64,000 nucleotides of DNA, from assembly GCF_900199215.1 (NCBI RefSeq), contig NZ_FZQA01000008.1, positions 1-64,000 on the forward strand. Direction: 5' to 3'. Source of the stretch: Amphiplicatus metriothermophilus. GTDB taxonomy: Bacteria > Pseudomonadota > Alphaproteobacteria > Caulobacterales > Parvularculaceae. The notes under the pieces were generated by a model, which was not told where the DNA came from, did no database searches, and saw nothing but the letters and a program-made list of their open reading frames with translations. This document shows positions 3,444 to 44,530 of the stretch, one piece after another. Every line of letters begins with the position of its first letter. Position 1 is the stretch's first letter. Position numbers and translations under genes: made by a program.

Positions 3444-3773
3444 TCAGCCCTCGGCCGCGCGCCGGGCGAGGGCTTCGACCCGGTCGGCGGCCTCTTCGAG
3501 CGCGCGCCGCGCCGCGCCGGCGCTTTCGGGATCGAGCGGGGCGCCGGCGGCCTCGAGATCGGCGAGGCGCTTGCGCGTCTCGAACAGCTCGTCGCACACG
3601 GTGAGCGCGGCGAGCAGCATCAGCCGCGCGTCGCCGATCTGGCCCAGCTCGCCCGACAGGCGCGTCACATGGCGGTCGAAATAGTTGGCGAGCTGCTGCA
3701 GGCGCTGCTCCTGGCCGTCGTCGCAGGTGACCTTGTAGAGGCGCCCGTTGATCGCGATGTCCGCCTGCGCCAT
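3444..3773 (-). CDS. zapA: Cell division protein ZapA
   Basis: A 109-aa protein with the ZapA pattern. A short N-terminal beta domain (AINGRLYKVTCDDGQEQRLQ) leads into a helix (LANYFDRHV) and then the MLLAALTVCDELF core helix and a charged coiled-coil tail. ZapA tetramers cross-link FtsZ filaments at the Z-ring. Its stop is 9 bp from the end of the nitroreductase gene, so the two converge. The DUF4164-type gene lies 3 bp upstream on the same strand, an association common in alphaproteobacteria. No 6S RNA was recognised next to it. Confidence 0.93.
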   Translation of the reverse strand: MAQADIAINGRLYKVTCDDGQEQRLQQLANYFDRHVTRLSGELGQIGDARLMLLAALTVCDELFETRKRLADLEAAGAPLDPESAGAARRALEEAADRVEALARRAAEG

Positions 3774-3776
3774 GGA

Positions 3777-4025
3777 TCACGCCTCGTTCGCTTGAGCGCC
3801 GGCCGCGCCGTCGGCTTCGTCGAGAATGGCGCGCAGCTCCGCGATCACGCCGGCGATGGCTTCCGAGGCGGCCTCCGCGCGCGCCCGCGCGGCGCGCGAC
3901 TGGCGGCGGGCGGCCTCTGCGAACTCGCCCTGAAGGGCGAGATTGTGAAGGCGCTGGGCGAGCGCGTCTTCCAGCGCCTCGACGGCGCCGGAGAGCCGCG
4001 CGGCCGCGTCTTCAAAGGTCGACAT
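3777..4025 (-). CDS. DUF4164-type small coiled-coil protein
   Basis: An 82-aa, almost wholly helical protein with heptad-like spacing of Leu, Ala and Ile and no membrane segment. It is the first gene of a two-gene unit with zapA. Small coiled-coil proteins of the DUF4164 type occupy this position in many alphaproteobacteria. A role together with ZapA in cell division is inferred from position only. Confidence 0.75.
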   Translation of the reverse strand: MSTFEDAAARLSGAVEALEDALAQRLHNLALQGEFAEAARRQSRAARARAEAASEAIAGVIAELRAILDEADGAAGAQANEA

Positions 4026-32238: not shown

Positions 32239-32303
32239 TTTCGGCTGAAAGTCCGCGCGGGCCACCTTTCCCCACCGAAAGGCGACCCATCTGAGAGGAT
32301 GGG
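32239..32303 (+). ncRNA. serC-type RNA leader
   Basis: Two hairpins sit directly before serC. The first is closed by TTTCGG (32239-32244) and CCGAAA (32275-32280). The second is CCCATC-TGAGAG-GATGGG (32286-32303), and its right arm touches the ribosome site of serC. Position, strand and two-hairpin form fit the serC RNA motif known upstream of alphaproteobacterial serC. The assignment is from memory of that motif, not an alignment. Confidence 0.6.
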
Positions 32304-32310
32304 AGACGAC

Positions 32311-39994: not shown

Positions 39995-40462
39995 ATGAAA
40001 TCGCGTCGCTTTCTCTTCGTCCTCTTTGCGGTTCTCGCCGCGGCCGCCGTCGCTTCGGCGTCCGTGGCCGGAAGGAATTCATTATCCAACGCCGCGCGGT
40101 TTGAAGGCGAAGCGACTCTCATCGCCGCGACCTTTTCTTCGGCGTGGTGCGCGGCGTGCAAGATTCTCGAGCCGCGCCTGGCGCGCGTGATTCCGCAATT
40201 CGAGGGCGCGCCGGTGAAATTCGTCGAGTACGATTTCACTTTCGGCGAAAAAGAACGCAATCGCGCCGCCGCGCTTGCGGACGGCGTGAGCGGCGAGGTT
40301 TATGACCGCTTCGCCGGAGCGACCGGGTTCACGCTGCTGATCGACGCGAAAAGCGGCGCCGTCGTCGACATGCTGACCGCCAGTCATTCGCCCAAAGCGA
40401 TGCGCGCGGCGATCGCGCAGGCGCTCGCCCGCGCCGGGCGCGCGCCGTCCGCTTCCCTGTAA
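39995..40462 (+). CDS. Secreted or anchored thioredoxin-like protein
   Basis: A 155-aa protein with an N-terminal hydrophobic segment (FLFVLFAVLAAAAVASA) and a thioredoxin-like fold. The redox motif is WCAAC in TFSSAWCAACKILEPRLARV. The cis-Pro expected later is not obvious: the aligned part reads ATGFTLLIDAKSG. It may act in periplasmic thiol exchange. It stands alone before the TPP aptamers. Confidence 0.8.
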   Translation: MKSRRFLFVLFAVLAAAAVASASVAGRNSLSNAARFEGEATLIAATFSSAWCAACKILEPRLARVIPQFEGAPVKFVEYDFTFGEKERNRAAALADGVSGEVYDRFAGATGFTLLIDAKSGAVVDMLTASHSPKAMRAAIAQALARAGRAPSASL

Positions 40463-40714
40463 AACAACGTATAGGGACGAAACGCCGGAAACGCCTGCGC
40501 GGGCGGGGTTTTCGACTGGTCGCCGTCGGCGCGGATTACACTGATCCGTTTCGCGCGGCGGGGCGCGCGCGCCTGATTCTTCTTGTCTGTCGAGGCTTTT
40601 TGAGGCACGATAGGACAGTTCCGAGGGGCGTCCCGCCTGTCGCCATTGGACGACGGCTCGTGCGACGCGCACCTCTCCGGCCAGCCTTTGGGGGAGTATG
40701 GAGAGCAATGCGCG

Positions 40715-40790
40715 CCAGGGAGCAAGGGCGTAGGGGACTGAGAAGAACCCTTAGAACCTGATCCGGGTCATGCCGGCGCAGGAACGGAAC
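40715..40790 (+). promoter_or_regulatory. TPP riboswitch-like aptamer 1 (divergent)
   Basis: The thi-box core is clear: GGGAGC, then ACTGAGA, AACCCTTAGAACCTGATCC, GGGTCATGCCGGCGCAGGA. The P4/P5 arm (CCTG with CAGG, CCGG with CCGG) is intact. The P3 arm before CTGAGA lacks pairing, and GCGCAGGAAC deviates from the usual GCGTAGGGA. It could be a decayed or divergent copy. No coding gene follows it before the second aptamer. Confidence 0.65.
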
Positions 40791-40882
40791 AGGCCGTTTT
40801 CCTCATCGCGGGATCCCAAGCAATTGCAGCGATGAGGGGAACGGCGATTGCGAGCGCGTTGCGTAAACCGACAGGGAAAGCC

Positions 40883-40943
40883 GAACGCCGCGGGGGAGAG
40901 GCGTAACGGCGTTCTGCATGCGCCGAACCGGCGTCGGGTTTTT
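40883..40943 (+). terminator. Possible switch and terminator hairpins after aptamer 1
   Basis: GAACGCCG (40883-40890) pairs exactly with CGGCGTTC (40907-40914). CGCCG-AAC-CGGCG (40921-40933) is followed by TCGGG and five T (40939-40943). An earlier 9-bp pair, CCTCATCGC/GCGATGAGG (40801-40837), also lies here. Together they could be an expression platform; that is an inference. Confidence 0.35.
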
Positions 40944-41143
40944 CTCCGGTTTATCCGTTATTCGGCCTTCGTTTTTCCGTTTGCGAGCGACGCCCGCTAC
41001 GCCGCGCTTTTCTTCCGTCGTATACGGAACGCAGCCCGACCCTCGGGCGGCCGGACCGCGCAGACCCAGGCCCGCTGGCCTCCGGCGCTCGAACAGCCGG
41101 CCTTGAAGGCGCGGGGCCGATTTGTTACGTGCTAAGGGAGCAT

Positions 41144-41237
41144 TCCGAGGGGCGCGGGAGAGCACCCGCTGAGATCCGGCTGCGGCTGTCGGAGCACCCT
41201 TTGAACCTGATCCGGGTCAGACCGGCGTAGGGACGGA
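41144..41237 (+). promoter_or_regulatory. TPP riboswitch (aptamer 2) upstream of the thiC unit
   Basis: A canonical TPP aptamer. TCCG/CGGA closes P1, GGGG pairs with ACCC in P2, and P3 is GCGGG-AGAGCA-CCCGC followed by TGAGA. An extra stem TCCGGC...GTCGGA, then TTTGAACCTGATCCGGGTC and AGACCGGCGTAGGGACGG complete P4/P5. It lies 77 bp before the gene coupled to thiC, so it should shut the operon down when TPP is high. Confidence 0.9.
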
Positions 41238-41313
41238 GAAGACGTTGATTTCCCCGCGCCAGGAATTCCCGATCGCAGCGGCGGCGCGAAGGCGCGCCGC
41301 GCAGGAGCGAGCC

Positions 41314-43963
<2,650 letters not shown>

Positions 43964-44011
43964 CCGGCCAGTGACTTGTCCGGCCCGCTCATGCTAGGAA
44001 TCGCCGTGACC

Positions 44012-44023
44012 AGGAGGCCTCCT
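44012..44023. promoter_or_regulatory. Palindromic ribosome site AGGAGGCCTCCT before the antitoxin
   Basis: A perfect 12-bp palindrome ends exactly at the ATG of the DUF433 gene and contains its Shine-Dalgarno. It may be an operator for toxin-antitoxin autoregulation or may modulate translation. Confidence 0.4.
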
Positions 44024-44257
44024 ATGAAAGCCGAGATATTCCCGCGCATCACGATAGATCCGGAAGTATGCTTCGGGAAACCGACCATCAGGGGGCTGCG
44101 CGTGCGCGTGAGCGATATTCTCGACATGTTGGCGGCCGGCGCGACTCGCGAGGAAATCCTCAAGGATTTTCCCTATCTCGAAGAGGGCGACATCACGGCG
44201 GCGCTTGCCTACGCCGCCCGCGCGGCCGATAACAAGATCGCCTTTGCAGCGGAATGA
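44024..44257 (+). CDS. DUF433 antitoxin
   Basis: A 77-aa DUF433 protein: ITIDPEVCFGKPTIRGLRV is the hallmark, followed by a helix-turn-helix-like VSDILDMLAAGATREEILKDFPYL. DUF433 proteins pair with PIN-like DUF5615 toxins, and exactly such a gene starts 3 bases downstream. An ATG 16 codons upstream is in frame, but AGGAGG supports this start. Confidence 0.88.
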   Translation: MKAEIFPRITIDPEVCFGKPTIRGLRVRVSDILDMLAAGATREEILKDFPYLEEGDITAALAYAARAADNKIAFAAE

Positions 44258-44260
44258 TCC

Positions 44261-44530
44261 GTGCGCTTCCTGATCGACGCGCAACTGCCGCCGCGCCTTG
44301 CCGACTGGCTTCGTGAAAAGGGCCATGACGCCTTGCATGTGCGCGAGGCGCCGGGGCTTGGGGCCGCCGACAGGGAGATCGTGGCAAGCGCTCGCGCCGG
44401 GAACATGGCCATCGTAACCAAGGACGCCGACTTCCTCGACCTCATCGATTCTTCGCCGCCTCAGCTCCTTTGGGTGCGGACTGGAAACGCTGCAACCACA
44501 GCGCTGCTTGCTCGGTTCGAAGCGCAATAG
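44261..44530 (+). CDS. DUF5615 PIN-like toxin
   Basis: An 89-aa PIN-like nuclease with a GTG start. FLIDAQLPPRLADWLREKGHDA near the start and VTKDADFLDL later carry the conserved acidic residues, and LLWVRTGN is the family C-terminal strand. It forms a toxin-antitoxin module with the DUF433 protein, and probably cleaves RNA. It lies just after thiC on the same strand. Confidence 0.87.
   Translation: MRFLIDAQLPPRLADWLREKGHDALHVREAPGLGAADREIVASARAGNMAIVTKDADFLDLIDSSPPQLLWVRTGNAATTALLARFEAQ

Follow-up and report, generated by a model that had tools for sequence, protein, structure and literature searches.

The first of the two TPP aptamers ahead of the thiC unit of Amphiplicatus metriothermophilus is, by its sequence, a complete type I aptamer without P3a (40618-40790, + strand) and not a relic that lacks P3. 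Together with the evidence from related genomes, this makes it quite probable that the element is a complete TPP riboswitch with a conserved, branched P3 domain of about 100 nt, which descends from a displaced ancestral thiC leader and works through control of an SD-containing hairpin. All positions refer to the window, i.e., the whole stretch of 64,000 nt that was analysed.

Two TPP aptamers ahead of thiC and the anatomy of the first

The Rfam model RF00059 matched the window at 41138-41250 (+, 73.3 bits), which is the second, ordinary aptamer (type II, with P3a), and at 40680-40799 (49.6 bits, E = 1.3e-8 in a search of 841 bases), which is the first; at E ≤ 0.001 these are exactly the two matches in the whole 3.16-Mb genome. 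The preliminary description of two TPP aptamers before the thiC unit was thus correct, and the covariance-model scan places the first of them above background, its score being under the RF00059 gathering score of 54.3 bits, which is a detection threshold and not an anatomical feature. The gap between the aptamers is 351 nt when taken from the matches of our model R1 (40618-40790 and 41142-41239). Downstream of the second aptamer lie a 253-aa gene (41314-42075, +) and thiC (42068-43963, +; PF01964, E = 1.7e-186); the 253-aa gene has no Pfam or NCBIfam match, its homologue is found 3' of the first RNA in 15 of 34 loci, and by its position it is possibly linked to thiamine. The 5' neighbour of the first RNA is a thioredoxin-like gene (39995-40462, +; PF00085, 23.6 bits, barely above the cut-off), with a homologue upstream of the element in all 34 carriers. 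Elsewhere in the window, a serC leader was matched by Rfam at 32255-32307 (+, 55.7 bits, above the cut-off), and thiC is followed by two small adjoining ORFs (43976-44530, +), which we take to resemble a DUF433/DUF5615 toxin-antitoxin-type pair.

As had been described, no gene is recognised between the two aptamers in the window, where the two ORFs longer than 90 aa (40848-41135, + and 40803-41165, -) gave zero matches in a Pfam search. A small conserved gene behind hairpin A (see below) was looked for in the relatives and rejected, since, by eye, no reading frame stays open throughout the 32 of 34 relatives with an anchor (G020 and G043 being unanchored) and the frames are closed in many of them.

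The first aptamer had been described as lacking a paired P3, and its start had been misplaced; P3 is present, and the true span of 40618-40790 has its 5' strands at 40618-40634. The 5' scaffold runs P1 GUUCCG (40618-40623, +), P2 AGGG (40624-40627, +), GC, P3 GUCCC (40630-40634, +), and the 3' half runs GGGAC (P3), UGAGA, CCCU (P2), P4-P5, CGGRRC (P1). The three 5' strands pair with CGGAAC (40785-40790), CCCU (40748-40751) and GGGAC (40734-40738), respectively, each in 32/32 sequences, and the 3' strand of P3 adjoins the UGAGA pocket (40739-40743), while the P4-P5 arm, the pyrophosphate-sensing side, is placed by the Rfam alignment at 40757-40782 (+). In the 32 sequences the P1-P2-P3 and P4-P5 helices can form round one junction. 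Rfam aligns the 5' half to a different, incorrect segment, from 40680 on, and we consider this misplacement to be the reason why its score stays under the cut-off. The idea of a low-affinity sensor had rested on the missing P3 and loses that footing.

The P3 arm measures 109 nt in the window, 90-142 nt in 32 genomes and 269 and 271 nt in two more, so that in all 34 it exceeds the approx. 60 nt beyond which a P3 counts as long. Most of it is an insert of 99 nt (40635-40733, +) with 19 invariant columns, in which we recognise P3b (40635-40637/40727-40729, +), hairpin H1 (40639-40654, +), P3c (40656-40659/40720-40723, +) and Px with a variable tip (40666-40671/40709-40714, +). Among the conserved pocket and junction bases, GGGACUGAGA is invariant in 32/32, and CCUGAUCC is found in 28/32, with GAACC instead in G019, G022 and G042 and GATAC in G017. 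This scaffold recurs in G050, whose aptamer lacks the insert, with a 5' half identical to the window at 14/14 positions and a 3' half, from UGAGA on, identical at 44/49; three other aptamers reached 10-13/14 and 43/49, so only the 5' half discriminates.

Comparative evidence for the fold and its distribution

Alignment A1 holds 32 sequences, G047 and G048 being left out because their linkers are too long. The nested structure consists of 46 pairs in 10 helices, and 95.2% of its cells are paired, compared with 31-45% in a control in which the partners were slid by 1-3 columns. Changes on both sides were seen in 11 pairs, where shuffles averaged 5.8, and in 35 cells, where they averaged 13.3 (0/500 shuffles as high), and compensatory changes occur in 6/10 helices. 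Cells are paired at 100% for P1, P2 and P3, 95.3% for P4 and 99.2% for P5. The kind of support differs between helices: P1 shows one-sided changes only (a single C to U, and A/G facing an invariant U), in P2 a single A-U pair, that of G026, is compensatory, and H1, P3c, Px and Px2 of the insert all change on both sides. P3b has no both-side changes, and neither it nor P3 has covariation support in the 32 sequences; because the strands of P3 are invariant, its pairing rests on position and on homology of the scaffold. Comparison thus shows that P1-P5 are all formable in the 32 aligned relatives and that helices within the insert covary as well.

For alignment A3 and model R2, 13 of the 25 genus-g6 carriers were picked by hand. 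Taken alone, these 13 sequences gave agreeing counts of both-side changes, with further pair types not beyond those of shuffles (65/500). The unconstrained RNAalifold consensus favours a competing 5' hairpin made with strands of P2 and P3, and in 10 sequences the MFE lay 0.3-8.6 kcal/mol below the enforced consensus fold; the pairs of the competing fold outside H1 are without both-side changes. A switch between the consensus and the competing fold is possible.

Of 62 family genomes, 36 have a TPP match below the cut-off, and 34 of these same 36, and no other of the 62, carry, once each, the block GTTCCGAGGGGCGTCCCGCCTGTCG, about 60-260 nt upstream of the start of the weak match. Over 25 nt the block has no mismatch in 31/34 and one or two in 3, and it was found exactly in 30 stretches of the genome collection, assigned to Marinicaulis, Parvularcula, Parvularculaceae or Alphaproteobacteria; a cultured relative, Marinicaulis flavus, carries it. 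The set of 34 carriers excludes G059 and G061, which are both without the block. Read on the sequence, the block turns out to be the 5' half of the aptamer itself. Since it equals the 5' strands of P1, P2 and P3, we adopted the nested reading, and a reading in which P3 was pseudoknotted and the block stood apart from the aptamer was dropped in favour of this simpler fold.

It could be argued that the block forms a structured RNA in its own right, of the SAH-riboswitch type or another, which stands beside an aptamer without P3, as RNAalifold can fold it alone and its layout presumably resembles the CCGAG..GCG..CUCG of the SAH riboswitch. We regard this as highly improbable, because the P1 strand stays paired in 32/32 despite A/G and C/U exchanges, P2 contains a pair changed on both sides, and an insert-free aptamer has a 5' half equal to the block. 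The SAH riboswitch as a candidate for the block was rejected, with no match at E ≤ 10.

Model R1 was built from the 32 full-length sequences including the window, so its 32 full-length matches among 398 genomes of the order (147-188 bits) are true by construction; among the matches listed, these belong only to genera g1, g5 and g6 of the family. Every other match reached at most 82.3 bits and mostly covered 75-125 nt, the longer ones being G059 (215 nt) and G184 (173 nt). The independent test is given by R2 on the loci of genera g1 and g5, as R2 excludes the window and its genus: full-length elements were found in all five other g1 loci and in the g5 locus (141-179 bits), and the highest score of the 14 sources, 189.5 bits, fell to the window element at 40618-40790 (E = 1.1e-41, with a rough calibration of the E-value). 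Genomes G047 and G048 (genus g7; loci L063 and L057) carry the block, scored lower than the full-length matches with R1 and reached only 56-59 bits with R2, due to their longer arm, which has about 130 nt extra in the tip of the insert; their long linkers matched no Rfam family at E ≤ 1. Overall, the insert is kept in sequence and fold across four genera.

These figures bear on the earlier suggestion of a decaying duplicate, by which the first aptamer would be a degenerating copy of the thiC riboswitch. Its score under the Rfam cut-off and the lack of a gene directly behind it in the window would agree with such decay, whereas none of the 32 full-length R1 scores exceeds that of the window copy (187.9 bits), which also has the best R2 score, and mean pairwise identity, at 33% in the variable linker, reaches 88% for the 5' block and 91% for the 3' half of the aptamer. 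Decay is therefore hardly credible as an explanation.

Other long P3 arms were seen in the order. Loci L059 (G059, 2652-2866) and L058 (G061, 3532-3804), both of genus g9, have long-P3 TPP aptamers with a different, AT-richer insert, within which they share GTGTTATAACAACTAA, and in G059 thiC lies directly 3' of the aptamer. As the inserts of G059 and G061 differ from that of the carriers, long P3 arms seemingly arose more than once here. A long P3 is also found in another family of the order, in the 173-nt TPP aptamer that starts at position 795 of locus L165 (G184) and precedes a 272-aa ORF.

Flanking signals, downstream genes and possible roles

Upstream of the first RNA there is a promoter-like element with conserved spacing (40582-40612, +), which consists of a -35-like CTTG at 40582 and, by eye, CACGATA at 40606-40612. 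CTTG stands at -36 (25 genomes) or -37 (9 genomes) from the aptamer start GUUCCG in 34/34 carriers, against a background of 1.7% of 8-nt slots elsewhere in the same loci. A simple sigma-70 consensus scan gave no promoter at the first RNA, so the promoter reading rests on conservation.

The aptamer is followed by hairpin A (40793-40845, +), a 17-bp stem with an SD-like GAGGGGA in its 3' strand, present by eye in 32/34 genomes (counted at scores of 19-42; G020 and G048, both at 18, are not counted, and G001 is counted by its fold). The window sequence 40793-40860 folds with z = -3.76. In G059 a hairpin in the like place has GAGGAGA in its 3' strand and the ATG of thiC about 10 nt further on, so that the SD of thiC lies inside it, and for this reason hairpin A looks like an SD-hiding platform that comes from a thiC leader. 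An antisequestor formed by the 3' end of the aptamer and the 5' strand of hairpin A is unsupported save in G032-G034 (mean z -0.74; 3/32 at ≤5/100). Two more candidates were rejected: hairpin A as a dispersed repeat, its pattern occurring once each in 6/10 genomes with an extra two-mismatch site in G030, and an intrinsic terminator behind the RNA, found in 15/34 relatives compared with 11.4 expected and so not enriched; the weak terminator-like stem with a T-run at 40920-40944 (+) is likewise doubtful.

The aptamer had also been proposed to be the control region of a lost gene, and the relatives provide a candidate. On the strand of the element and downstream of it, 20/34 carriers have a NAGPA gene (the G041 copy being assigned to PF09992), which demonstrably precedes thiC in 17, while in three (G002, G026, G039) the contig ends first. 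The NAGPA match starts at most 720 nt away in 11 genomes, with a called 111-aa ORF first in G042; in 6 of the 11 the frame is open back to hairpin A, and in 5 it is not. In G018, G026, G032, G034 and G039 the open frame has an ATG or TTG 4-10 nt from the SD. In the window genome neither a NAGPA homologue at E ≤ 1e-6 nor a protein with the Pfam NAGPA domain was found. The proposal is thus supported by the downstream gene in relatives and its absence from the window genome, while a loss of NAGPA, as opposed to its never having been present, is what we infer.

NAGPA is not nearby in 14 carriers, and a homologue at E ≤ 1e-6 was found in 0 of the 12 of these searched whole (G001 and G045 lie outside this search, and G033 is just 83% complete); a search with the Pfam model showed different proteins with a NAGPA domain in G020 and G030, encoded on other contigs. 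The genes behind the element vary. The next gene is convergent in 5/34, namely DsrE-like in G005, G037 and G045, a symporter in G019 and a regulator with TPR in G044 (identified by Pfam in four of the five and by tblastn in G045), and perhaps in G008, where the ORF is doubtful. An outer-membrane barrel comes next in three (G024 by Pfam; G033 and G043 by tblastn), and ahead of the type II aptamer the ORF caller gave nothing in the window, G020, G027 or G030; it was insensitive in G027 and G030, where it missed known genes. So varied a next gene, convergent in some genomes, is hard to reconcile with a simple leader. Two further genomes show other arrangements, which we count in favour of the displaced-leader scenario below: G003 (94% complete; no block and no full-length R1 match) has the type II aptamer, then directly NAGPA, then thiC, and in G011 the type II aptamer and thiC are preceded, at a distance of about 2.5 kb, by a type I aptamer that lacks the insert.

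For the window taken by itself, the short gap and the lack of a recognised gene within it, as well as the missing ORF calls in G020, G027 and G030 (with the above insensitivity for the latter two), would suit a true tandem, in which both aptamers belong to one leader of the 253-aa gene and thiC. We consider this improbable, as the gap exceeds 700 nt in 22 of the 26 relatives with a measured distance (up to 7,061 nt) and contains genes, some of them convergent, and as hairpin A together with the fixed CTTG points to a unit of its own. The word tandem is doubtful for this arrangement, given the distances of up to 7 kb in relatives and the conserved -35-like element of the first aptamer's own.

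We propose the following scenario for a displaced thiC leader. Transcription would start at about 40618 from the RNA's own promoter; when TPP is bound, P1-P5 would lock, and hairpin A would then keep the SD-like strand shut, so that translation from there is off. The first RNA may represent the family's ancestral type I leader of thiC, which would have been displaced upstream when a type II aptamer took over thiC in the clade, and which would have gained the giant conserved, branched P3 domain in one clade. In some relatives the first RNA probably acts in cis on NAGPA or other neighbouring genes. The lineage of the window would have lost NAGPA, and the RNA, still intact, would stand by itself with the thioredoxin-like gene on one side and the thiC operon on the other. 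Both a recent gene loss and a gene-independent role fit this state of the window.

The persistence of the RNA in the 12 searched genomes without NAGPA speaks for some role of its own. It is conceivable, if less probable than not, that the element is a TPP-sensing RNA independent of any gene, possibly trans-acting, with the insert or hairpin A as its working part. It has been kept in 12/12 searched carriers that have NAGPA neither nearby nor as a homologue, it has its own -35-like element and the invariant insert columns, and the R1 scores are no lower with a convergent or uncalled next gene (152-187.9 bits, 9 genomes) than with NAGPA at most 720 nt away (150.2-182.5 bits, 11 genomes; Mann-Whitney p = 0.32, the other 12 scored genomes being unclassed). 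However, no target was found, the terminator that would end such an RNA is not enriched, the five genomes with NAGPA frames open to hairpin A and starts close to the SD look leader-like, and the gene loss could be recent. A stronger form, in which selection has kept a free-standing TPP-sensing RNA in lineages devoid of NAGPA, its P3 insert acting as a novel effector domain, as a site for a protein or as a second sensor, seems rather unlikely to us. The probability we give to a gene-independent RNA overlaps with that given to the displaced thiC leader, since the structure is common to both.

Comparison with known TPP riboswitches

The findings imply that bacterial TPP riboswitches can carry P3 arms of fungal size and that here the arm is a conserved folded domain and not a filler. 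The standard model halved this aptamer and made it seem weak and without P3, and surveys of tandem or orphan riboswitches may misread others in the same way. An intact riboswitch in the 12 searched genomes without NAGPA also makes a role for a gene-less aptamer testable in a cultured relative. In the literature searched, from which subscription journals were mostly absent, we came across neither a bacterial example of a giant conserved P3 domain nor a description of the present RNA.

With the TPP riboswitch (THI element, RF00059) the first RNA shares P1, P2, P3, the UGAGA pocket, the P4-P5 arm with CCUGAUCCGG..CCGGCG and the place near thiC; it differs in its P3 arm of 90-142 nt (32 genomes) or 269 and 271 nt (two genomes), which is filled by the conserved branched domain. 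In fungal long-P3 TPP riboswitches P3 reportedly exceeds the rest of the aptamer, with up to 172 nt, and varies in sequence and length (PMC11683625, PMC5882874), and for the fungal case RF00059 is reported often to yield incomplete matches when P3 is longer than approx. 60 nt (PMC11683625). Unlike those riboswitches, which belong to eukaryotic genes, ours is bacterial and lies between a thioredoxin-like gene and thiC, and its insert is conserved in sequence and fold, so the likeness is one of layout only. The thiC TPP riboswitches of Klebsiella and Serratia are described as having an extended P3, of which a 24-nt extension was moved experimentally (PMC12632268), whereas the insert described here has about 100 nt and is branched.

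With regard to tandem TPP riboswitches, earlier reports give 213 TPP representatives in tandem, with ligand-altered variants noted (PMC9481103), state that several aptamers occur in <1% of such leaders (PMC2258182) and treat contiguous TPP riboswitches with tables for Bacillota (PMC12452182). Our case has in common with these that two TPP aptamers precede thiC. A tandem places two riboswitches within a single leader of one ORF; the window has no recognised gene between its aptamers, while many relatives have genes there. In contrast to such tandems, the two aptamers here differ in subtype (without and with P3a), are often kilobases and genes apart in relatives, and the first one has a hairpin A of its own.
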